Position numbers and translations under genes: made by a program
Notes under the pieces: generated by a model
The model's database searches: none
Told to the model about the DNA's origin: nothing
The model's input: the letters and a program-made list of their open reading frames with translations, nothing else
Shown: in pieces, positions 42,143 to 53,886 of the stretch
Layout: every line of letters begins with the position of its first letter
How positions within the stretch are numbered: the first letter of the stretch is position 1
NCBI GenBank assembly: GCA_017477435.1
Contig: JAFUVV010000004.1
Location: 1 to 62,733 of the forward strand
Length of the DNA stretch: 62,733 bases
Source of the DNA: Prevotella sp.
GTDB lineage: Bacteria > Bacteroidota > Bacteroidia > Bacteroidales > Bacteroidaceae
Reading direction: 5' to 3'

Positions 42143-42955
42143 TTATCTTCTCCGGTAATATTTGTTATATCTTCGCGACTTTTTCGGTTTTGGTGTGTCG
42201 GGATGTGATGCTTTTATGATGGCACTGCGCCGGGCACTGATACGAGCCTGACGCTCGGCCTCGGCAAGGGTCTTCTGCTGTTGCTGCTCGTGGAAGTGGT
42301 CGGTCTTGATCATCTTGACTTTTCCCTCGGCAAGCATGAGGATGATCTGCTCCTTCTCGGGCTGCAGGCGACAGACGAGCTCGGTGTCGGGCTGGAAATG
42401 GAAGGTCATCTTGTCGCCGACGATGCGATGGATGCCGGAATGGATCGTGCCGGAACGGGTGAGCGCGATGTTGTATCCGTGGATGGAAAGGGTCGTGGTG
42501 TCGCCCTGGCTGATACCTATCCAGCTGCCTTCTATCCAACGGGGGACGGTGTCGGTGGGGTGTTGGCTGGAGAGAAGGAAGTCGGTGGGGTCGGTGTCGC
42601 CGGAGGATTGGGCTCTTTCGGCGCTGCCGCTGCAGAGGTAGAGCATGAGGATGAGGAAGAGGGCGATGGCAATGATGCAGCCAAGTCCGCTTCGCTCGCG
42701 ACGACGGATATTGGGGATGGTCTTCGTACGGATATCGTCAAGGGTCTTCTCGTAGTCGGTGGGTGTGTCTGTGTTCTGCTCCGCTGCCGGCGCTGATGGC
42801 GTGTCCTCGACATGCTGCTGTGCTTCGGCTGCCGGCTGTCTTACGGCAACGACAAAGGGTGTGCCGCACAACGGACAGACGCTGTGTACCTCGGTGATGC
42901 CTTCTGCAACGGGCTCATCGAATCGGTAGCGGCACTTGGGACAACGAATTAACAA
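42143..42955 (-). CDS. Zinc-ribbon membrane protein of unknown function
   Basis: 270 residues. The N-terminal MJ0042-type zinc ribbon has four Cys: CPKC (4-7 region) and CPLCGTPF (about 31-38). A Pro/Ala/Thr-rich linker leads to one membrane helix (GLGCIIAIALFLILMLYLCSG, about 90-110) and a compact beta domain (WIGISQGDTTTLSIHGYNIALTRSGTIHSGIHRIVGDKMTFHF, about 145-187) with a basic helical tail ending RRYNKYYRRR. The start is TTG at 42955: the ribbon begins at once and no ATG is available; the codon lies in a TTAATTCGTT repeat. The 384 bp upstream are repeats, so linkage to the tubulin/actin-like genes is uncertain. Confidence 0.65.
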   Translation of the reverse strand: MLIRCPKCRYRFDEPVAEGITEVHSVCPLCGTPFVVAVRQPAAEAQQHVEDTPSAPAAEQNTDTPTDYEKTLDDIRTKTIPNIRRRERSGLGCIIAIALFLILMLYLCSGSAERAQSSGDTDPTDFLLSSQHPTDTVPRWIEGSWIGISQGDTTTLSIHGYNIALTRSGTIHSGIHRIVGDKMTFHFQPDTELVCRLQPEKEQIILMLAEGKVKMIKTDHFHEQQQQKTLAEAERQARISARRSAIIKASHPDTPKPKKSRRYNKYYRRR

Positions 42956-42959
42956 ATCA

Positions 42960-43335
42960 ACTAATTAACGGATTAACGAATTAACGAATTAACGATGACG
43001 AAAGGACGATGACGAATTCTCGCAAATGCAATTTAGAAGTTCTGACCGTTTGAGTTTCCTTGTTAAGGAAACGGCGTAAGCGAAGGATTTTAATTATCCC
43101 CGCATTCTCCAGACTCGCTGACGCTAATAGGAGCGAACAAGTTCGAGCGATAGCCGCCCCTTATCAAGGGGCTCTAAATGCCCCGCGGGGAGGTCATAGA
43201 ACTTTAATTGCATCAAGAGAATCAGCGACAGCTAAAGGACGATGACGAAGGGACGATGACGAGGACGAAAGATTTTTAACTCCATAACTCCAAATCATAC
43301 GTCATAACTCCATAACTCCTTAACTCCATAACTCC
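42960..43335. repeat. Repeat mosaic between the zinc-ribbon and coiled-coil genes
   Basis: No gene in 384 bp. From left to right: AACGAATT/GACGATG microsatellite (42960-43015); GAATTCTCGCAA (43014-43025); the perfect hairpin GTTTCCTT-GTT-AAGGAAAC (about 43053-43071); CCCCTT/AAGGGG; CCCCGCGGGG (43181-43190); AAGAGAATCAGCGACAGCTA (from 43215); GACGATG microsatellite; and TAACTCCA/TAACTCCT words (43275-43335). The segment 43181-43235 is closely matched by the complement of 55892-55946 inside the U32 coding sequence. Confidence 0.75.
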
Positions 43336-43339
43336 AAAT

Positions 43340-43873
43340 TTACTCAAACTGCACTTGTGCTTTTACTGTCGTGCGCCAGACGCCATCTTCGAAGACGGCG
43401 GAGCCTGGCATGTGGACGACAACGTGGCGGGGCTGGATGTTCACTTGTCCGATTATCTTGCACACGGGTTTTACGAACTGGGAGATGCTTATCGTTGCCG
43501 TGGCGAGTGCATCAGGGGTGTTGAGCAGCCGGAAGGTGCCGTTGATGCCGTCGTCGGTGGTGAGGAGGTACACGCTGCTGCCTACTCGCTCCTCGGGGGT
43601 GTATTCTGTGAACACGCCGTCGATGGTGGGGGCGGAGAGATAGAGCTGCTTTGGCCACGACTCGGGCTCTGGCTGTGGTGGGGCGACGGGCTGTGGCGTC
43701 TCGACAACAGCGGCGGCGGGCACCGACTTGAGCTGCTCTTCGAGCTCGGCAACGCGGGCCTCGAGGGCGGCAAGGCGGGCTTCGAGGGCTTGGATGGCAA
43801 GGCGGGCTTCGGTGTCTTCAAATGGCACTGACGGCTCGGGCTCTTGCTCTGTGAAGTTTCCGAATAGTTTCAT
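43340..43873 (-). CDS. Coiled-coil protein downstream of the actin-like gene
   Basis: 177 residues from ATG 43873 (an ATG 14 codons earlier overlaps the previous gene). Acidic N-terminus, then a clear heptad coiled coil, RLAIQALEARLAALEARVAELEEQL (about 26-50), a Pro-rich linker (VETPQPVAPPQPEPESWPK) and a C-terminal beta domain of about 100 residues (QLYLSAPTIDGVFTEYTPEERVGSSVYLLTTDDGINGTFRLL; QPRHVVVHMPGSAVFEDGVWRTTVKAQVQFE). No known domain recognised. It starts 28 bp after the actin-like stop on the same strand, so it is very probably the last gene of that operon and perhaps a regulator or adaptor of the actin-like protein. Confidence 0.7.
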   Translation of the reverse strand: MKLFGNFTEQEPEPSVPFEDTEARLAIQALEARLAALEARVAELEEQLKSVPAAAVVETPQPVAPPQPEPESWPKQLYLSAPTIDGVFTEYTPEERVGSSVYLLTTDDGINGTFRLLNTPDALATATISISQFVKPVCKIIGQVNIQPRHVVVHMPGSAVFEDGVWRTTVKAQVQFE

Positions 43874-43901
43874 AGAATGGGATGGTTTAGGGGGATTTGT
43901 A

Positions 43902-46900
43902 TCATAGCAGTCCAAGTTCTTCTATCAGGTTGTCGCGGATGCTTCCGATGATGGGATAGAAGAACACGGCATCTTCGACGACATCTGCTTCGTTCTTGTC
44001 TTCGGCATTGCGGTTCATGTAGCTCCAGCCGTTGACAAGATGGTGCTCGAGGTCTTTTCCTACGAGTTCGCGGAACATCTGCAGCGACTTGCTGTCGACG
44101 AGGAAGCGGTCGGTCACACGGAGGTCGGTGCACAGGGTGAGGAAGAAGTCGTTATACTTCTCTACTTCACCAATGATGGCATGTCGCACTTCGGCATTGT
44201 CCATGTCGGCATAGGTGATTCGCTCGCGGTCGATGGCTGAATAGACATATTTCATCGGCATGTCGATATCGTCGATGAGACGGTTTAGCTGTTCAACGTT
44301 GTCGCAGCCCTGACGGTCGCGCACCTGCATCAGTGCTCCGCGACAGGTGATTTGTTTGGGTTCGCGACGTTCCATCACTACCGAGAATCCGTCGCTGCCA
44401 TACTTCTTTCCATAGACATTCTCGAAGATGTAGGCGGTGAGCAGATCGAGGTCGCGCTGGCTTCCCACGATGTCGAGCACTTTGCTTCCGGTGCCGCTGA
44501 ACATCACGCTGCGTGGCATGTCGAGGCCGCGATGGTGCATCATACGGGCTACGTAGTAGATGAGGGCGGAATAGAAATAGACGAATACTATCTTGAGCCG
44601 GCTGTCTTCTCCGAGTCGCATGTCGTAGGAGAAGACGTCGTTGCCGCCGACGGCCTTGTTGCCGATGATGGAGAAGAGGAACGCGTTGATGTCTTCGCTC
44701 TTGCGTTTCGACGTGATGTCTTCCATTATTCCGTTGAGCTCTCCATAGCGATCGTCGTCGGTATCGAACAGACGGCGGAAGTAGTCTACGTATTTCTTCA
44801 CCATCGGGTTGCTGTCGCCTTGCGGCACTTCTGAATATCCGTCGCCGAAGAGAACGTTGGCTGCGAAGCGGAAGGAGGTGAGCAGGGATGGCTGTGAGGC
44901 GTTGCTCTCGAAGACGACCACGTCGCTCGACCCGCCGCCGATATCGATATTTGCTACTGTCGATGCTCCTCCACGGAACTTACTCGACGAGCGGTAGAAA
45001 TAGTATGGTGCTACGCTCTCGGGCATGGCGATGAGGTTGCTGCTGTCGGTGCTGATGCCGAACACTTCGCTCACTGTCTTTGCCCACATTTGTCCGAGCT
45101 TATTGATGTTGCCCACTTTCATGGCGAGTGGATAGAACCACACGATGCGTGTCTTCGACAGGTCGCCGTTGGAGAGAAGCACTTTTGTGCGCATGAGCAT
45201 GGCGAGTTCGGTCAGATAGGCTTTCACCCGCTTGCTTGTTGCGGGCTCCACCGACCATTTCAGGTTGGCAACAATCCTATTTCCGTATCCCACGCTTTCT
45301 TTTTCGTATATGAACGGCAGGCATGCGTCGGCAAGTGCCACGATGCGGTCGGCATTCTCGGCGTCGAGCCTCACGCTCTCGGAGAGGACGGTGCGCTGTG
45401 GGAAGCCGTAATCGCCGCCTATGGCTTTGGGAAGGAATTCCTGCTTCATTATCACATCGTAGAGTATGCTCTCTCCATTATACGACGTTGCGACCAGTCG
45501 CTGTGCAGCCACTGAGTCGATGGCCAGCGGGGCTGGTATCTCTCCCTCGTGCATGGCTTCCACATGGGTGTTTGTGGTGCCAAAGTCTACGGCGAAGGTG
45601 TATGCTTCGTGGCCTGCCACATAGTCGCTCCACCGCGGGCACAGCAGTCCTGTCGCTGCGACGGTTTCGCGCTCGGTGAGCAGCGTCACTCCGATATATT
45701 CGAAGTTGCCGTCGACACTGTAGTATGCCGACCCTACTCGCTTCTCTGCCTTCAGGCTACGCTCGCGGCACGTCGTCAGTTTGTCGTCGAGTGGTCGGCC
45801 GTCGTTATCGAAGAAGGCGAGCTGCATGCGGTAGCCTTCGAGCATTCCGAGGGCGCGGTCGACAAGTTGTACTCTGTACTGCCCTGGCGTCGGTGTCTTC
45901 ACAAACGGGAACACGCTGACGGCGAAGGGCACGGTCACGATCTTCCCGCTGTCGTTCATGCGGTCGTAGCTGAGGTCGACGCCGCTGGCCGTGGTGTACT
46001 GCCGCTGCAGGGTGATGTAGTGTCCTTGCTTCTGCACAGGAATGCGCAGCGTTGCGGTCACGGTCTCCGTAGAGCCGCTCTTGCTGGCTGTCAGTTCGAA
46101 GCGCGGCCGTCCGCATGTCGTCCCCCACAGGTCTTTCACGCTGAAATACCTGAAGAACAGCGGTGAAAGCGGCAGCAGATAGTCGCCACCTTGTCGCGTG
46201 ACTCGCATCTCGTGTATGCCTCCGTCGAAGAAGCAGTCGGCATTGAGTGGATAGTCGAGCCTTATGATGACTGGCTGGAAGAAGTCGTCGGCCGTGAGCC
46301 AGGGGTATCGATGCGTTGTTGCCGGCAGTACGCGCTCCTCGGGAGCCACGGCTGTCATGGCGGGGGTGATGCGGATAGTGTCGTCCCAGGGGCGGGTGAT
46401 ATATCTCATCGGATCGCCCTGGGGGGCATTCAGGTTGTTCTGCAGGACCAGAGGCAGGCGTTCTTCTCCCATGTTCTTCGTGGGTACTATCACGAAGTCG
46501 CTCTCTCCTATTGCTGTCTCCACGTCGCCGTGTCGTGCTTCATAGAGCGGCACTCCGAGCACCTGCACGCCACCGTCGATTCTGTCGAAGTTGCTCTCCA
46601 CATAGGTCTTGGCCCGTCCGGTGCTCTCGAGGTCGAGTGCGGCGGGGTTGCCTATCTCGCTGAGTATCTCCTGCCGGAGTTCCGTCGGCAGCAGGGGTAA
46701 TGCTGCAACGAGGTAGCTGTTCACCTCGGCACACCGCCGCTTCAGCTCGGGATAGGCTGTGAAGAGGGCATAAACGTATTTCACGAAATTAGGTTCTCTT
46801 TCCGTCAGCTGGCGTATCTGGTCGAAGAGGCGCACGTTCTGCTCTACGTGGACAGCATACTTTCCTCTCCTTGCATTAGGCGATGCCATGAACAGCGTCA

Positions 46901-47381
46901 CGGGGGATGTAGATCCTACCACGTCGCCGTCGATGACGAGGAAGAACAGCTTGTCCATCATGTCGAAGTTGAAAGCTTCCCTGTCTTGCTCAAGGTACAT
47001 CTCCATTGTCTCGCCGAGCAGCCGGTGGGCAGTGCTGTCGCCGAGCATGGCGGGCTGCACCGCGCGGTCCCACGTCACCATTCTCATTCTCTCTGCCATC
47101 TCGCTATAGCCGAAGAAGAGCTGCGCCACGTCGAGCGCTCCCGACACCAGTTGCTCGTCCATCGCCTCTCCGCGGAGGTCGCTATGGTCGGCAAGGCGGC
47201 GAAAGGCATTCTTCACCAGGTCCATCTGTGCAAACGGCGACGGGATAGCCGTGCGGGGCTGTGCCGACAGACCGCCGTTGGGGTCGTCGATCATATTGAT
47301 TTCGTCGGCATTATACTGACCGTCGAGGGTTATCCAGCCCTCGCCGGTGGTCTTCTTGTTGTATGATAGAATCTTGCTCAC
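43902..47381 (-). CDS. Giant actin/Hsp70-fold (ASKHA) protein
   Basis: 1159 residues, GTG start (complement of 47379-47381; no ATG near). Residues 1 to about 585 show no recognised domain and end in beta-rich segments (RFELTASKSGSTETVTATLRIPV). Residues about 590-1100 form an ASKHA ATPase core: phosphate 1 loop TFAVDFGTTNTHVE (about 590), phosphate 2 loop ANIDIGGGSSDVVVFESN (about 812), and adenosine-type motif SVMFSGTGSKVLDIVGSQ (about 964). SrfB-type virulence proteins have similar size and might be relatives; this needs profile comparison. It lies downstream of a tubulin-like and a vWA-like gene in one orientation, with array A copy 5 in between. Probably a nucleotide-dependent switch or filament. 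Confidence 0.75.
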   Translation of the reverse strand: MSKILSYNKKTTGEGWITLDGQYNADEINMIDDPNGGLSAQPRTAIPSPFAQMDLVKNAFRRLADHSDLRGEAMDEQLVSGALDVAQLFFGYSEMAERMRMVTWDRAVQPAMLGDSTAHRLLGETMEMYLEQDREAFNFDMMDKLFFLVIDGDVVGSTSPVTLFMASPNARRGKYAVHVEQNVRLFDQIRQLTEREPNFVKYVYALFTAYPELKRRCAEVNSYLVAALPLLPTELRQEILSEIGNPAALDLESTGRAKTYVESNFDRIDGGVQVLGVPLYEARHGDVETAIGESDFVIVPTKNMGEERLPLVLQNNLNAPQGDPMRYITRPWDDTIRITPAMTAVAPEERVLPATTHRYPWLTADDFFQPVIIRLDYPLNADCFFDGGIHEMRVTRQGGDYLLPLSPLFFRYFSVKDLWGTTCGRPRFELTASKSGSTETVTATLRIPVQKQGHYITLQRQYTTASGVDLSYDRMNDSGKIVTVPFAVSVFPFVKTPTPGQYRVQLVDRALGMLEGYRMQLAFFDNDGRPLDDKLTTCRERSLKAEKRVGSAYYSVDGNFEYIGVTLLTERETVAATGLLCPRWSDYVAGHEAYTFAVDFGTTNTHVEAMHEGEIPAPLAIDSVAAQRLVATSYNGESILYDVIMKQEFLPKAIGGDYGFPQRTVLSESVRLDAENADRIVALADACLPFIYEKESVGYGNRIVANLKWSVEPATSKRVKAYLTELAMLMRTKVLLSNGDLSKTRIVWFYPLAMKVGNINKLGQMWAKTVSEVFGISTDSSNLIAMPESVAPYYFYRSSSKFRGGASTVANIDIGGGSSDVVVFESNASQPSLLTSFRFAANVLFGDGYSEVPQGDSNPMVKKYVDYFRRLFDTDDDRYGELNGIMEDITSKRKSEDINAFLFSIIGNKAVGGNDVFSYDMRLGEDSRLKIVFVYFYSALIYYVARMMHHRGLDMPRSVMFSGTGSKVLDIVGSQRDLDLLTAYIFENVYGKKYGSDGFSVVMERREPKQITCRGALMQVRDRQGCDNVEQLNRLIDDIDMPMKYVYSAIDRERITYADMDNAEVRHAIIGEVEKYNDFFLTLCTDLRVTDRFLVDSKSLQMFRELVGKDLEHHLVNGWSYMNRNAEDKNEADVVEDAVFFYPIIGSIRDNLIEELGLL

Positions 47382-47443
47382 TGGGCAAATGTTTTTATGT
47401 TTCTATATCTTTTTGTCGTTGTCGCTATTTTCTCTCGCCGCCA

Positions 47444-47526
47444 GTACATGGGCTTTGCATTCTCAGTACATGAACGTTGTACTCGGGGTACATGGGCTTT
47501 GTACTGTCAGTACATGGGCTTTGTAC
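47444..47526 (-). repeat. 22-bp periodic quadruple dyad array, family A, copy 5
   Basis: Units start at 47444, 47466, 47488 and 47510: GTACATGGGCTTTGCAT, GTACATGAACGTTGTAC, and GTACATGGGCTTTGTAC twice; reverse orientation, 22 bp apart. It lies between the tubulin-like stop and the GTG of the actin-like gene (62 bp away), so inside a presumed operon. Confidence 0.95.
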
Positions 47527-47573
47527 TGCGGCCGTCGGAATCTGATGCCGCGGCCGAGGAGGCGAGATTATCA

Positions 47574-49118
47574 TCAAACCACACCCACATATTTCTCGTC
47601 GACGAGTCGGTCGAGCGTGTGGAAGAGGAGGTCGAACAGTCGCAGGGCAACGTGGTCGTTGTCGTAGCGGCGGCTGCGGGTGGCCTCCTGAGAGGCACGG
47701 TTGAGAGCCGAGAGAAGCGTGTTGTAGTCAATCGCCGAACGGAAGAGGCTGCTCTTCGGTGCGATGTCGTTGAGACAGTCGGAGAGTTTGGCCGTGTTGA
47801 GATTGAACGGAGCGAAGCTGCGCTGATTGGTCTTCATCTCCTTGAGCCACTGGCGGTAGCCCACGAGGAAGTCGGCAGTGAGGGTGTTGAAGAACGTCGA
47901 CGAGAGAAATGCCTTCGTGATCTGCGGGCGGTCGACGGTGTAGCCGCGGCCGATGTCGTCGCGAAGCTGGTGGGTGATATACATGTAGGCGAGATGGAAC
48001 TTCGCCATGTTGCGGTTCACGAGCTGCCGCGTGGGAAGGCCGAAGTCTTTGAGGCTGAGCACTGTCTTGTCGGCAGCAAGGCCATATTCCTTGTATATCG
48101 GATTGACAGCATTGCCGTCGACGGTGCGCAACTGATCGTCGGGCACCTGAAGGAAATCGAGAATCGAGAGAGCACCGACGTACTCCACGAGATGGGCATC
48201 GTTGCGCTGGCCGCCACCTCCAGGGTCGTTGAAGTATGGATTGCTGGCCACTTCGTCGCCGAGGTAGTAGCAGGCATTGACTTTAGAAAGGGGCAGGTCG
48301 CGTGCATCGTGGCGCAGACCGGTGAGATTGTCGTGATAATAGTAGAGGGCCGACTTGGTCTTCGAAATAAAGTCGGCACGCGAGATGGGCGAGTTGTCGT
48401 CGTGCTGGATGTTGAAGTACGGCAGCACGGTGAGCGCTCCGATGCGGGCATTGCGCAGGTCGCCACGGTTGTTGATGGCACTGTTGACGGCTGCGTTGCG
48501 TATGTTCTTCACTATTATGGGATAGCCGGCGGCTCCCGTTCCGCCGAAGATGGAACTGACGACGAAGATGCGGTCGTCTTTACGGAACACATTGGCAAAC
48601 TGGCGAAACTCCTCTGAGTCTTTCAGCTGATTGAGGGCAACGCTCCCGATGTTGGGACTGCCCACAAAACCGATGTCCATCTTCGTGTCGAGCTGATAGT
48701 CGGCAAACATCATCGAACAGAGGGCTTGGTTGCCGCTGTCGAGGGTGGAATAGTCGATAAGCTCGGAGAACTTCTTCGACTCCACTCCCGCCATGCTCAT
48801 GACGAAGTTGTCGGGAAGCATATTGCTGTCGGGAACGATGTCGCCGAGGGTTGAGAGCTTGGCTGCGAAGAATCCGTCGGGCACATCGACGGCATCGCCA
48901 TAGAGCTGACGACGCAGCTGTCGATACCAGCGCATCATGTTCTCTGTGCGCTTGAGGTCTTGATTAGCCTTGTGGGGATCGACTACGATGGGAACTACTT
49001 CGACGGGAACAGAACGTCCGTCGGCAGTCTTCGGACGTATGCCGGAGGCGAGCTGCATAATGAGAGGGCGCATCACACGCGACCCTGTGCCGCCTACTAA
49101 GAAAAGGAATAGTCGCAT
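47574..49118 (-). CDS. Tubulin/FtsZ-like GTPase-fold protein
   Basis: 514 residues. It opens MRLFLFLVGGTGSRVMRPLIMQLA, a Rossmann strand and glycine loop of the tubulin type, and carries the tubulin signature-like loop FVVSSIFGGTGAAGYPIIVKNIRNAA (about 185-210; FGGTGAAG for GGGTGSG). NIQHDDNSPISRADFISKTKSALYYYHDNLTG lies where the T7/synergy region is expected. The C-terminal 200 residues are helical. It fits the tubulin-like Pfam family (Tubulin_2) found outside cell-division FtsZ; canonical FtsZ is about 380 residues with a different body. Such proteins have been described next to vWA-domain genes in predicted membrane-remodelling systems, as here. GTP binding is inferred only. Confidence 0.75.
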   Translation of the reverse strand: MRLFLFLVGGTGSRVMRPLIMQLASGIRPKTADGRSVPVEVVPIVVDPHKANQDLKRTENMMRWYRQLRRQLYGDAVDVPDGFFAAKLSTLGDIVPDSNMLPDNFVMSMAGVESKKFSELIDYSTLDSGNQALCSMMFADYQLDTKMDIGFVGSPNIGSVALNQLKDSEEFRQFANVFRKDDRIFVVSSIFGGTGAAGYPIIVKNIRNAAVNSAINNRGDLRNARIGALTVLPYFNIQHDDNSPISRADFISKTKSALYYYHDNLTGLRHDARDLPLSKVNACYYLGDEVASNPYFNDPGGGGQRNDAHLVEYVGALSILDFLQVPDDQLRTVDGNAVNPIYKEYGLAADKTVLSLKDFGLPTRQLVNRNMAKFHLAYMYITHQLRDDIGRGYTVDRPQITKAFLSSTFFNTLTADFLVGYRQWLKEMKTNQRSFAPFNLNTAKLSDCLNDIAPKSSLFRSAIDYNTLLSALNRASQEATRSRRYDNDHVALRLFDLLFHTLDRLVDEKYVGVV

Positions 49119-49192
49119 ATGTGACAGATTAACGAATTAACATATTAACGGATTAACGAGAAACTCTACACTCTACACTATCCACTCTCCAC

Positions 49193-49639
49193 TTACTCCG
49201 GAATCGGAGTGTGGCGGCAGTTAGACGACCACCAACGGACAGAGAAGGAGACAATCGTGAAAAGGACAAACTCAATGAGCGAGTTGACGAGGGAGAATAT
49301 TGTCAGCTGGGTGCTGAAGTCGATGTTATCCTCTATGAACACTCTGTTGCAGCTCATCCATGCCGCTACCGATGCTGCGGCAGAAGCAATGATGGCAATG
49401 AGCAGCCAGTGATACCACCGCGAGAAGAGGACCGAATTGACGACATAATAGAAGAGTCCTGCCAATGCCCAGGCAACGACAACATCGATTATGGCGACGA
49501 CGATGTAGAGACTCTGGTTGTACATCTCGTTGGAGAATTCACGCTCATAGTAGATACTCTCCATCACCACGGCGGAGAAGACCAAGAACAGCACCGAAAT
49601 CACGATGCCAAGAAAAAGCAGTATGAAATTCTTTCTCAT
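49193..49639 (-). CDS. Small four-helix integral membrane protein
   Basis: 148 residues, about four membrane helices: FILLFLGIVISVLFLVFSAVV (5-25), LYIVVAIIDVVVAWALAGLFYYVV (44-67), WLLIAIIASAAASVAAWMS (78-96) and FSLVNSLIEFVLFTIVSFSVRWW (115-137). No recognised family. It lies between the vWA-like lipoprotein gene (50 bp) and the tubulin-like gene (74 bp), all on the minus strand, so it is probably the membrane component of that set. Confidence 0.7.
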   Translation of the reverse strand: MRKNFILLFLGIVISVLFLVFSAVVMESIYYEREFSNEMYNQSLYIVVAIIDVVVAWALAGLFYYVVNSVLFSRWYHWLLIAIIASAAASVAAWMSCNRVFIEDNIDFSTQLTIFSLVNSLIEFVLFTIVSFSVRWWSSNCRHTPIPE

Positions 49640-49689
49640 AAGTAAACTATGAATTCTTATTTATGAATTTTGCATTATGAATTATCACT

Positions 49690-51213
49690 TCACTTGTTTA
49701 TCTCTATTTCCAACTCGAAATAATGCGGCTGCTGTCCTGAATACCGACGATAGCTGTCGTAGATGCCCTGCATGAGATACTTTATGCCGAAGGTGGACTG
49801 ACTGAAATCATCGGCAAGTACGTCGCGGTCGTCATCGGTCGACGTCGCATCAACCCAGTGGGGAAGACGGTTTAAGAGACTTATTTCAACATCTTGATGC
49901 GAGCGTAGCTCAGTGGCACGGAGAATGAAGAGGTGGGTGGCAGTCTTCAGGTATTTCTTCTCTGCCGGAGTGATATCTTTCTTGTCTATCGGCCGGATAT
50001 CGACAATCTCAATCTTGCCGTCGGAGTCTACTTCATAGTTAGCCTTGTCGGTGAGATAGTCGCTGTCGATGAACATACCGCTGAGGTCGACGGCCAGCGA
50101 CAGCTGCAGGTCGCCACTGTTGCGGTCGGGGCTGGCATCTTCAATGCTGGTGATGCGGTCGGCTTGCCCTCGCCTGGGCTGGAAACGACCACGGATGTCG
50201 CTGCCGGCAAGGAGAAGGGAATAATATGGGGAATAGACATCATTGGCTGAGAAGAGATACATACTCTCATATCCACGCAGCTCGGTCAACTGACAGAAAG
50301 CTGAATAGCCCGCGTCGTGCGGCAGGCGGCTCATTGTGTCGTTGTCGCCGACAATGACAATATAGTACGGCCGCTGACCTTTATAGTTGACACTGCCCGA
50401 CTGGGTATATGGATAATATTTCCCGCTATACATCCCCGACATCTTCACCACAAGCATGCTCTTGTCCTTCACCTGCTGCTTGAATACCGCCTGTGTCATT
50501 CCCTTGGCATCGGCGAATATCTTCTGGGCGTTGGTTCCTTCCATCTCTCGGGTGGAATATATCATGTCGGTGACAAGGATACTAAGCTCGTTTTTCCTCG
50601 TTGTGCGGAGTATATTATCGAATATCGCCGCAAAATCGGTATAGTTCGCATTGCCTATACCACGTGTCGACTCGAAGATATTGCGGTCGGCCACAAACTG
50701 CTTCACTCCCTGCGGATAGGGATAGATGCTATCGTTCACCACGAAGACGGCACCATCGTCGCCAGGCAGATTGTTGAGCATGCTCACTATTGCTGCCTTG
50801 AAAGCTCCGTCGCCGTCGGCAGTATCGTAGGGCGTCATCGAACCGGAACGCTCCAGATAGAACTTTACGGCGAGGGCACCGCCGCCGTTCATCCCGTCGA
50901 ACCGGATATCGACAGACGGACGACGATCATCGAAATACTCCGAGATGTAATCCTCCAACTTGTCATAGTCTATCTGCCCGTCGGTATAGAACTCTCCGAA
51001 GTGAGCCTTATGCTCATCGAGATAGCCGGCAATCTTGCCCCAGTCATCGCTGTCGATAGTGGCATCGTCGGCAGCAAGTGAGACAAGCATACGGTTGAAC
51101 TCACGCCGATCCCTGTCGCCGCACGATGCAGCAACAACGACAAGAAGCCCCGACAGAAGCAGGGCAAAGCCATAGCGAACAGGTGTCAACACTCTATTCC
51201 CAAAATATTTCAT
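49690..51213 (-). CDS. vWA-like lipoprotein
   Basis: 507 residues from the ATG at 51213 (a GTG precedes it directly; GAGGTG upstream fits a ribosome site better for the ATG). Lipoprotein signal: FALLLSGLLVVVAASCGDRD (Cys about 31). An alpha/beta domain starts at about 115 with LAVKFYLERSGSMTPYD, a MIDAS-like motif in which the usual first Asp of DxSxS is Glu. Then DDGAVFVVNDSIYPYPQGVKQFV, TDFAAIFDNILRTTRKNELSILVTDMIYSTRE (the Thr- and Asp-bearing loops of vWA) and YYIVIVGDNDTMSRL. The C-terminal half is beta-rich. First gene of the minus-strand set, with a consensus promoter. Metal binding is not certain because of the Glu. Confidence 0.75.
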   Translation of the reverse strand: MKYFGNRVLTPVRYGFALLLSGLLVVVAASCGDRDRREFNRMLVSLAADDATIDSDDWGKIAGYLDEHKAHFGEFYTDGQIDYDKLEDYISEYFDDRRPSVDIRFDGMNGGGALAVKFYLERSGSMTPYDTADGDGAFKAAIVSMLNNLPGDDGAVFVVNDSIYPYPQGVKQFVADRNIFESTRGIGNANYTDFAAIFDNILRTTRKNELSILVTDMIYSTREMEGTNAQKIFADAKGMTQAVFKQQVKDKSMLVVKMSGMYSGKYYPYTQSGSVNYKGQRPYYIVIVGDNDTMSRLPHDAGYSAFCQLTELRGYESMYLFSANDVYSPYYSLLLAGSDIRGRFQPRRGQADRITSIEDASPDRNSGDLQLSLAVDLSGMFIDSDYLTDKANYEVDSDGKIEIVDIRPIDKKDITPAEKKYLKTATHLFILRATELRSHQDVEISLLNRLPHWVDATSTDDDRDVLADDFSQSTFGIKYLMQGIYDSYRRYSGQQPHYFELEIEINK

Positions 51214-51241
51214 CACCTCTTACATTTTATATTATAATCTG

Positions 51242-51272
51242 CAAAGATAGTGCAAGTTGAGTGTAAAACAAA
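51242..51272 (-). promoter_or_regulatory. Promoter of the vWA/tubulin/actin-like operon
   Basis: TTTG (complement of 51269-51272), 19-bp spacer, TATCTTTG (complement of 51242-51249). The predicted start is about 22 nt before the ATG at 51213. Confidence 0.8.
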
Positions 51273-51421: not shown

Positions 51422-51453
51422 ATTGCATGCCCACCTTATTTTGACTAACTTTG
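51422..51453 (+). promoter_or_regulatory. Promoter of the TonB-dependent receptor gene
   Basis: ATTG (51422-51425), 20-bp spacer, TAACTTTG (51446-51453). The box overlaps the upstream in-frame start at 51451, so translation must begin at the ATG at 51481. Confidence 0.7.
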
Positions 51454-51480
51454 CAGCCGGAAATAACAGATACAGAAATA

Positions 51481-53886
51481 ATGAGACAAAAATTTTTCAC
51501 CATTTTCGCCCTTAGCCTTCTTGCTAGTAATATCTTTGCAGAAAACGTCGGCGAGCCCGTCCTCGGCGATACATCACGCGTCATAATGCTCGACGAAGTC
51601 GACGTCGTGTCGAGTCCAAAGGAGAATTTCTCCCTCCGTCAGCAGCCCGTCAGTTCGACATCCTTCGGCACCCAGGCCATCGAAGTGCTCAATCTGCGCG
51701 ACCTCCGCGACCTGTCGCTCTACGTACCGTCGTTCACCATGCCGTCCTATGGCTCGCGCCTCACCTCGTCGATGTACATACGTGGCATCGGCTCGAGAGT
51801 GAACAGCCCTGCTGTAGGGGTATATATCGACGATATCCCCGTGATGTCGAAGTCGGCTTTCAACCAGCATATCTACAGCACGCGCCGCGTAGACGTGCTT
51901 CGCGGACCGCAGGGCACACTCTATGGACAGAACAATGAAGGCGGACTGGTGCGCATCAGTTCGCTATCGCCGTTCCAGAACCAAGGCACCGACATCATTC
52001 TCGGCGGCGGCACACACGGCTATCGCAATGCCGAAGTAGCCCACAGGGCACAGCTCTCAGACTATGCCGCCATCGCCGTAGCAGGATTCTACAACGGGCA
52101 GAACGGCTTCTTCCGCAACCAGGCCACCGGCGAGCGTGCCGACAACATCAACGAAGCCGGAGGAAAGATAGCCCTCCACTTCCGACCGACACAGGGATGG
52201 ACCATCGCCCTCAACGCCGACTATCAATACACACGGCAGAACGGCTTCGCCTACGGACTCGTCGATGAAGCAACAGGCAAGACCGCCGACCCAGCCACCA
52301 ACCGACAGGGCAACTACCGGCGCAACTCGCTCATCACAGGGCTCAACCTGAAATACAAAGGCTCGCTGGCCGACTTCTCGTCTGTCACGTCGTACCAGTA
52401 TCTGAAAGACTACATGCTCATGGACATCGACTACACTCCCGACGACTTCATGCACCTCGAGCAGCGACAACTGCAGAACGCCTTCACACAGGAACTCACC
52501 CTCCGCAGCAACCGGGAAAACCGCTGGCGCTGGACAACAGGTGCATTCTTCTCTGCATCATGGCTGAAGACATGGGCACCCGTCTACTTCGACGAAGCCC
52601 TCACCGCTCCCATTGCCAACGCCATAAACACTGCCATGTACAACGCAATGCTCAACTCCATGGCAGCCAGAATGATGCAGACAGGTATGCCCCGCGAAGC
52701 AGCACTCGCAGCAGCAGCTGCTGCCATAGAACGCGCAGGGGGAGTGAGCATGACCGTCGACATGCAGGCACCTGGCACCTTCCACACTCCCGACTACAAC
52801 CTCGCCGTCTTCCACGAGTCGAACATCTATCTCACACCGCGACTCGTCGCCACACTCGGACTCAGATACGACTACAACCACGTAAGCATCAACTATAACA
52901 CCTCTGCCTACATGGCAATGACGGCAAACGTAATGGGAACCGAAGCCACTTACACCCTCACCTCAGCCCTCAACCGCCACGCAAGCAACGACTTCAACCA
53001 ACTGCTGCCGAAGATCGGACTGCGCTACGACCTCGACAGCCACGGAAGCAACATCTTCCTCACCGCTGCAAAAGGCTATCGCGCAGGGGGATACAACATC
53101 CAGATGTTCTCCGACATCCTCCAGACTGAACTCAACGCCAACAGCAGCCGGGCCATGCGAGGCGACTACGACGTGCCTCACGACGACGCTGCCTACGAAG
53201 CCATCACAAAAACAATAGAATATAAACCCGAGACATCGTGGAACTACGAGCTCGGCACACACCTATCCCTCTTCGACGGCAAGATGACGGCCGACCTCTC
53301 AACATTCTATATGCAAGTGCGCAACCAGCAACTCTCCGTCATGGCAGGAAACTACGGATTCGGTCGCATGATGGTCAATGCCGGCCGAAGCTACAGCTGC
53401 GGAGCAGAAATAGCACTCCGCGGAGCAACACTCTGGCGCCGCCTCGAGTGGATGGCATCCTACTCCTACACCCACGCCGCCTTCAAGGAATACACCGACA
53501 GCACCACCGTCGACGGCAAGACCATGGCCGTCAGCTACGAAGACAACCGCGTGCCATTCGTGCCGGAACACTCCTTCGCAGCATCGCTCGACTACACACA
53601 GCCCCTCACCTCGGCCATCAGCCTGCGCCTGGGTGCCAACATCAGCGGAATGGGAAAGACCTACTGGGACGACGCCAACACCATCAGCCAGAAATTCTAC
53701 GCCACACTCGGTGCGCATGCCGACCTGCTCACGAAGCACGTCACCCTCTCCCTCTGGGGACGAAACCTCACAGCCACACACTTCAACACCTTCGCCGTCG
53801 AGAGCTCGGCAACAGGAGAGCACCTCGTATTCGCACAACGTGGCAACCCTCTGCAGATAGGCGTCGACCTCCGACTGCACTTCTGA
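51481..53886 (+). CDS. TonB-dependent outer-membrane receptor
   Basis: 801 residues. Signal peptide MRQKFFTIFALSLLASNIFA. The plug domain begins near ALEVLNLRDLRDLSLYVPSF-like FGTQAIEVLNLRDLRDLSLYVPSFTMPSYGSRLTSSMYIRGIGSRVNSPAVGVYIDDIPVM and includes RVDVLRGPQGTLYGQNNEGGLVRI, the classical plug motif. A 22-strand type barrel follows and ends in GNPLQIGVDLRLHF with terminal Phe. There is no carboxypeptidase-like N-domain, so it is of the iron-complex/cobalamin receptor type rather than SusC. An Ala/Met-rich helical insertion (about 380-425, with PREAALAAAAAAIERAGG) sits in what should be an extracellular loop. Ligand unknown. Divergent from the vWA operon; flanked downstream by a terminator. 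Confidence 0.92.
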   Translation: MRQKFFTIFALSLLASNIFAENVGEPVLGDTSRVIMLDEVDVVSSPKENFSLRQQPVSSTSFGTQAIEVLNLRDLRDLSLYVPSFTMPSYGSRLTSSMYIRGIGSRVNSPAVGVYIDDIPVMSKSAFNQHIYSTRRVDVLRGPQGTLYGQNNEGGLVRISSLSPFQNQGTDIILGGGTHGYRNAEVAHRAQLSDYAAIAVAGFYNGQNGFFRNQATGERADNINEAGGKIALHFRPTQGWTIALNADYQYTRQNGFAYGLVDEATGKTADPATNRQGNYRRNSLITGLNLKYKGSLADFSSVTSYQYLKDYMLMDIDYTPDDFMHLEQRQLQNAFTQELTLRSNRENRWRWTTGAFFSASWLKTWAPVYFDEALTAPIANAINTAMYNAMLNSMAARMMQTGMPREAALAAAAAAIERAGGVSMTVDMQAPGTFHTPDYNLAVFHESNIYLTPRLVATLGLRYDYNHVSINYNTSAYMAMTANVMGTEATYTLTSALNRHASNDFNQLLPKIGLRYDLDSHGSNIFLTAAKGYRAGGYNIQMFSDILQTELNANSSRAMRGDYDVPHDDAAYEAITKTIEYKPETSWNYELGTHLSLFDGKMTADLSTFYMQVRNQQLSVMAGNYGFGRMMVNAGRSYSCGAEIALRGATLWRRLEWMASYSYTHAAFKEYTDSTTVDGKTMAVSYEDNRVPFVPEHSFAASLDYTQPLTSAISLRLGANISGMGKTYWDDANTISQKFYATLGAHADLLTKHVTLSLWGRNLTATHFNTFAVESSATGEHLVFAQRGNPLQIGVDLRLHF

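Follow-up and report, generated by a model that had tools for sequence, protein, structure and literature searches.

Five genes on the minus strand of a 62,733-nucleotide stretch of Prevotella sp. DNA (contig JAFUVV010000004.1 of assembly GCA_017477435.1; the whole stretch is called the window below) form a cassette in which a predicted tubulin-type protein (TUB) and a giant actin/Hsp70-type protein of the ASKHA superfamily are encoded together with a vWA-like lipoprotein, a four-transmembrane protein (4TM) and a coiled-coil protein (CC). The five open reading frames (ORFs) had been picked out in an initial annotation as a candidate multicomponent system; all are present, each has homologues in relatives, and the proposal is supported by the TUB fold, the ASKHA core and the joint conservation of the neighbours. 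The cassette may encode one envelope-spanning machine, probably one that responds to envelope perturbation, a reading advanced tentatively and at a little under an even chance; the support directly in hand is the gene set, its order, its conservation and the predicted folds. From 5' to 3' the gene order is vWA-like lipoprotein, 4TM, TUB, ASKHA and CC, followed after 384 bp by a zinc-ribbon gene (ZR). The coordinates of the five genes and of the ASKHA core are as follows.

49690..51213, minus strand: vWA-like lipoprotein, 507 amino acids (aa), with a hydrophobic N-terminal segment, a lipobox-like AASC (Cys31) and residues resembling a metal ion-dependent adhesion site (MIDAS)
49193..49639, minus strand: 4TM membrane protein, 148 aa, four predicted transmembrane helices
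47574..49118, minus strand: TUB, 514 aa, GGTG and FGGTGAAG nucleotide loops, helical C-terminal part
43902..47381, minus strand: ASKHA, 1159 aa, GTG start, N-terminal part of ~590 residues followed by an actin/Hsp70-type core
44274..45608, minus strand: ASKHA core, residues 592-1036 (DFGTTNTH, DIGGGSSD, SGTGSK)
43340..43873, minus strand: CC, coiled-coil protein, 177 aa, conserved C-terminal domain

Structure models bear out the two cytoskeletal folds that had been named from motifs. The model of 47574-49118 has a tubulin/FtsZ fold, and both glycine loops are found in the family: FGGTGA (residues 191-196), a slightly altered T4 loop, is kept in 45/45 TUB rows, and the T1 loop has G9, G10 and G12 in 44/45 and T11 in 42/45. 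By predicted fold and glycine loops, TUB belongs to the FtsZ/tubulin superfamily. Its Pfam matches at E 1 are sub-threshold only (Tubulin_2, 19.7 bits against a cut-off of 27; Tubulin, 17.9 bits), and Tubulin_2 is matched at E 0.01 by 37 of 45 TUB members. The AlphaFold model of 43902-47381 (predicted local distance difference test 86.8, predicted template-modelling score 0.77) contains an ASKHA core, and D599, G601, D813, G815, G816 and D820 of its motifs are each kept in 47/47 rows. The modelled actin/Hsp70 fold, with two phosphate loops and an adenosine loop, assigns the protein to the ASKHA superfamily. While the window ASKHA has no Pfam match at E 1, Pfam FtsA is weakly matched by 23 of 38 ASKHA members, hhalign scores the core against FtsA at 95.6%, and among viral structures it is Hsp70-type proteins that ASKHA matches best (lowest E 3.6e-8). 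Within the first 45 residues, a hydrophobic stretch occurs in only 4/76 TUB members and in no ASKHA member, so both proteins are taken as cytoplasmic. A quick tree places the window TUB within a mostly Prevotellaceae set of 12 (Shimodaira-Hasegawa-like approximate likelihood ratio test support 99).

The neighbours are conserved together in other genomes. ASKHA is found in 7 of 40 genomes and the cassette in 6 of 24 genomes of the same genus (own genome included in both counts), several of the latter genomes being incomplete. All five genes occur in order by BLAST at four loci (L010-L013); of two diverged loci, one (L015) has its vWA and 4TM positions taken by a DASAS lipoprotein and a membrane protein, and the other (L014) has no recognised 4TM. 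A scan of named genomes by ASKHA left 80 of 179 loci for counting by profile searches on greedily called ORFs, with enough upstream sequence in 68 and enough downstream sequence in 56. Seventy-eight of the 80 are titled as Bacteroidota, and the others are one Leptospiraceae and one Sulfuricurvum metagenome-assembled genome. Upstream of ASKHA lie TUB (66/68), vWA (65/68) and 4TM (61/68), and CC lies downstream in 49/56 testable loci; median intergenic gaps across relatives are 15.5-37 bp, and the five-gene run is unbroken in 46/80 loci, a count that takes in loci truncated at contig ends and miscalled ORFs. Since these loci had been fetched by ASKHA, co-occurrence was also counted starting from TUB, which is present in 13 of 395 Bacteroidota genomes; 12 of these are ASKHA-positive (9 strong and 3 diverged, the latter upheld by matches at E 1e-16 to 2e-19). 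In the remaining genome (G429), ASKHA and CC have been lost and TUB is broken; vWA, a short 4TM and MotA/MotB-like genes are still there. The count excludes 4 of the 16 ASKHA-profile hits (G275, G298, G309 and G336), which are frames of 336-514 aa; two of the four were inspected by eye and set aside as Ppx-like and FtsA-like. Over 71 loci, pairwise ASKHA distances correlate with pairwise TUB distances (r 0.965), a value reached in 0/200 shuffles and as expected of a unit inherited together. Named carriers resembling cultured strains include Hoylesella pleuritidis JCM 14110, Prevotella koreensis KCOM 3155, Parabacteroides distasonis An897, Spirosoma endophyticum DSM 26130 and Chitinophaga eiseniae DSM 22224.

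The remaining core proteins point to the envelope, with localisation predicted by simple hydropathy. The lipoprotein had been annotated as MIDAS-like, and such a pattern is found (ERSGSM...T...D), but its first residue is Glu, not Asp. This is a property of the family: E121 is present in 70/71 alignment rows (the other being a gap) and D216 in 71/71, and the first residue is Glu in all 66 pattern matches among 73 vWA-family proteins; it is Asp at the diverged loci L014 and L015. A lipobox-like site is predicted from hydropathy and pattern in 54/73 members. The 4TM family has 3-4 predicted helices in 63/68 members, and the CC family has one or two predicted membrane segments in 54/68, with none in the CC of the window. 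The coiled-coil gene itself stands as annotated, with its start corrected, most likely to the ATG at 43873. Among the window proteins, vWA, 4TM, CC and ZR have no Pfam match over cut-off at E 1, NCBIfam gives nothing over cut-off for the cassette proteins, and PADLOC against the six proteins gives a single weak match (E 0.15).

Beyond CC, the cassette continues into a tail that varies among lineages. The 320 downstream genes of the 80 loci include CC (69), MotA-like (26), MotB/OmpA-like (21) and two zinc-ribbon families (16 and 15), along with retropepsin-like (15), trypsin-like (6), SNase (4) and YkuD (3) genes, one member of each of these last four families having been checked by Pfam. Several of the tail genes are tied to the wall and membrane (MotA/MotB-like genes and those with OmpA, YkuD, retropepsin and trypsin matches). 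Three MotB-like tail proteins match PADLOC ZorB (E 1.1e-13, 1.3e-12 and 4.8e-14) and two MotA-like ones match ZorA (E 1.8e-4 and 2.6e-5); the Asp that has a channel role in MotB-type proteins is kept in 22/22 MotB-like proteins (21 by pattern, the last reading DLMIS). The zinc-ribbon gene had been suggested as a possible accessory in the window, and it does recur downstream of CC in Prevotella-type loci; ZR is an accessory of the Prevotella-type version of the cassette. At the diverged loci, the TUB-ASKHA cassette of L043 (L043:2172-4063) has three genes after it that by eye resemble TerD, L044 lies beside OmpA, and L045 lies beside a sub-threshold MotA and OmpA.

The best-known bacterial partnership of a tubulin-fold and an actin-fold protein is that of FtsZ and FtsA in the divisome, which are encoded by neighbouring genes and work jointly at the inner membrane. 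The cassette resembles it in that a tubulin-fold and an actin-fold protein are encoded side by side and in the profile resemblance of the ASKHA core to FtsA. However, ASKHA is nearly three times the length of FtsA and has an additional N-terminal half, the sequences of TUB and FtsZ are far apart, the pair is accompanied by the vWA lipoprotein, 4TM and CC, and the host also retains an ordinary FtsZ. SrfB (of SrfABC; Pfam PF07520) is likewise a giant ASKHA protein; the window ASKHA nevertheless has no Pfam SrfB match at E 1, and only 3/38 members match weakly (best E 0.046).

The initial annotation had linked the cassette to FtsZ-like systems with vWA partners. The original description (Makarova and Koonin 2010, PMC2875224), which gives GGGTG[ST]G as the glycine-loop motif of the FtsZ/tubulin superfamily, predicts FtsZl1-vWA-OmpA operons to be membrane-remodelling systems, in which the vWA partner has DxSxS, most FtsZl1 proteins have an FtsZ domain followed by an extended coiled coil and a helical C-terminal domain, and a P-loop GTPase and an OmpA protein are frequent, not universal. 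The cassette likewise places a tubulin-superfamily protein in an operon with vWA and membrane proteins, and OmpA/MotB-type proteins occur in 17/56 of its relatives. In contrast to FtsZl1, the window TUB falls below the Tubulin_2 cut-off, TUB is ~500 aa long and lacks an extended coiled coil (the longest helix in its model has 23 residues), it is accompanied by ASKHA, and the six window proteins include no P-loop GTPase or OmpA match over the Pfam cut-off. Across the 395 genomes, Tubulin_2 exceeds its cut-off in nine, as eight long proteins (977-1208 aa, one cut by a contig end) in genomes that lack TUB and as the diverged TUB of G323. The neighbourhoods of the eight long proteins (7.8-19.5 kb) contain no homologue of the five cassette genes at E 0.01. 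The cassette, which has a tubulin family to itself and a giant ASKHA partner, is therefore either a sister of these systems or analogous to them. The suggested kinship holds in the sense of an analogy and of a distantly homologous tubulin domain, but does not make the cassette a member. Next to the Tubulin_2-type protein of G432 lies a 1187-aa IDFGTSNT protein (L217:3923-7486) that the ASKHA profile does not match, possibly a second, independent tubulin/ASKHA pairing. Tubulin_2 proteins form a sparse outgroup in a 2023 survey of FtsZ and tubulin (PMC9871819), and the word tubulin does not occur in a 2025 MotAB survey (PMC12505986).

Two further families of systems share parts with the cassette. 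DO-GTPase/GAP1-N2 conflict systems also include zinc ribbons and place vWA, tubulin and HSP70-type proteins close to the membrane; tubulin and HSP70 are non-overlapping themes there, with the tubulin theme confined to Firmicutes and Actinobacteria (Kaur et al. 2020, PMC7159879). The diverged locus L014 has a trypsin and a DO-GTPase1 match that stays below threshold (22.6 bits, cut-off 27), whereas the six window proteins have no DO-GTPase, GAP1 or FNIII Pfam match at E 1. The likeness to Zorya lies in the tails, with MotA-like proteins in 21/56 and MotB-like proteins in 17/56 relatives and, for the five proteins searched, best PADLOC matches to ZorB and, weakly, ZorA; unlike Zorya, the window has no MotA/MotB-like gene among its 54 ORFs. 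In Zorya, ZorB binds peptidoglycan and phage defence requires ion flow through ZorAB (PMC11890865). No description of the cassette was found among the matches listed for the open-licence literature, although its gene set may appear in the operon tables that supplement the 2010 paper.

Around the core, the window contains the following features.

51242..51272, minus strand: promoter, TTTG-N19-TATCTTTG, exact pattern match, 28 bases upstream of the vWA ATG
47442..47527, no strand assigned: imperfect tandem repeat, 3.9 copies of a 22-bp unit, in the TUB-ASKHA spacer
42143..42955, minus strand: ZR, zinc-ribbon protein, one predicted transmembrane helix, separated from CC by the 384-bp spacer

The annotated promoter is upheld by pattern counts (10 such matches in the window against 0.57 expected in shuffles), the remaining nine matches all lying outside 42143-51241; presumably it is of the Bacteroides type, and a simple sigma-70 scan did not report it. 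Two spacers are long in comparison with relatives, namely 4TM-TUB (74 bp versus a median of 37 bp) and TUB-ASKHA (192 bp versus a median of 18.5 bp). Short tandem repeats with 22-bp and 8-bp units occupy spacers of the cassette and its flank (47442-47527, 42943-42995, 43277-43336 and 49128-49159), and the TTG start of ZR lies inside one of these arrays. Within the genus, one chromosomal place is marked by genes that by eye look like metA, a U32 peptidase and an SH3 lipoprotein, and often by a TonB receptor. The cassette occupies this place in three genomes (G000, G012, G019) and, two genes beyond, in a fourth (G009); in four genomes without ASKHA (G003, G004, G010, G006) the same receptor is followed by other genes, and in G002 and G008 the cassette is on other contigs. 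From genome to genome the cassette is thus present or absent as a block, in many cases at this one place. The TonB-receptor-like gene at 51451-53886 is on the plus strand here, while in several relatives it has the same direction as the SH3 lipoprotein gene, and it therefore seems inverted in this genome. Ahead of the cassette in G008 lie a 1095-aa Hsp70-like protein (L016:6425-9712) and a GrpE-like coiled-coil protein (L015:1723-3084), both named by eye and with no informative Pfam match, and trypsin-like and P-loop genes come after it. A phage or plasmid origin was rejected, because ASKHA has no match among 50,697 phage records and TUB matches only 6 of 72,556 plasmid records, one closely (a 1.77-Mb Prevotella replicon, 68%) and five weakly (cyanobacterial). 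Three IMG/VR contigs carry the whole or most of the cassette on stretches that may be viral or host; two of them (L222, L223) have near-identical vWA-x-TUB-ASKHA-MotA cassettes beside a gene that looks helicase-like by eye.

We infer the locations of the proteins, their assembly, the direction of the signal, its trigger and the role of the machine as follows. The vWA lipoprotein, outside the cytoplasm, would bind a periplasmic ligand or sense damage through its metal-type site, and 4TM would relay the signal across the inner membrane, together with CC in relatives whose CC has membrane segments. Beneath the inner membrane, TUB and ASKHA would form a GTP/ATP-driven assembly in which ASKHA may be the obligate partner of TUB, acting as a tether or regulator much as FtsA does with FtsZ, or as a remodeler. 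Lineage-specific tails (a ZorAB-like ion channel, proteases, nuclease, zinc-ribbon membrane proteins) would read out or execute the response, and the trigger may be a disturbance of the envelope, for example an attack by phage or damage to the wall. A response to envelope perturbation is favoured because of the ZorAB link, given the peptidoglycan binding of ZorB and the ion flow in phage defence. A bolder version, possible and held with greater doubt, is that this is a second, division-independent pairing of tubulin and actin folds in addition to FtsZ-FtsA and the first to be connected to a transenvelope sensor, one that triggers mixed assembly under the inner membrane, in many lineages coupled to a wall-bound, ZorAB-like ion-driven motor, so as to detect and stop phage entry or envelope damage.

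Several observations weigh against a machine of this kind. The high ASKHA/TUB distance correlation would also be expected from joint inheritance; 15/73 vWA-family proteins have no hydrophobic segment and 19/73 no lipobox-like site; and hhalign scores TUB against FtsZ at only 0.4% (29% against FtsZl1), so that the TUB fold call rests on the model and the Pfam counts. Profiles built here find no MotA/MotB-like gene among the 54 ORFs of the window, whose own output would therefore be only the core and ZR. The same chromosomal place in four genus genomes fits a long-held chromosomal trait equally well, and there is no clear defence island, a few of 95 flanking and tail genes from 30 loci matching PADLOC at 1e-8, a count without a baseline (among the matches listed, which cover 25 of 68 families, C3a212, mad3 and mad2 twice each, and single matches including PDC-S02, PD_DExK, NsnB, GajA and AriA). 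The shared place, the lack of a clear defence island and the envelope-linked tail genes suit constitutive membrane remodelling or vesicle trafficking, with a TUB/ASKHA cytoskeleton that bends or moves membrane, vWA and 4TM as anchors and no sensing of threats, as proposed for the analogous FtsZl1-vWA-OmpA operons (PMC2875224). This explanation is nonetheless rather unlikely, as patchy presence (6/24 same-genus and 12-13/395 Bacteroidota genomes) and interchangeable tails with proteases, a nuclease and a ZorAB-like channel are more like a response system. Quality control or stress protection, in which ASKHA would act like Hsp70 on clients caught by the vWA protein or TUB, appears improbable in view of the absence of Pfam HSP70 from the 15 families matched by 38 ASKHA members and the retention of the TUB nucleotide loop in 45/45. 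Chance adjacency of genes with independent functions, for which the longer, repeat-filled spacers of the window might speak, is scarcely credible given the co-presence of TUB and ASKHA and a gene order that holds in many Bacteroidota and also in one Leptospiraceae and one Sulfuricurvum genome.

Besides FtsZ-FtsA, the cassette supplies another pair of predicted tubulin-fold and actin-fold proteins, one that Bacteroidota inherit as a single block together with a predicted envelope sensor and membrane components. If TUB and ASKHA work together, they would constitute a new cytoskeletal module that is not part of the division machinery, and the link to a ZorAB-like motor points to a way in which phage attack or envelope stress might be reported to the cell interior. 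Carriers resembling cultured strains make the cassette testable.
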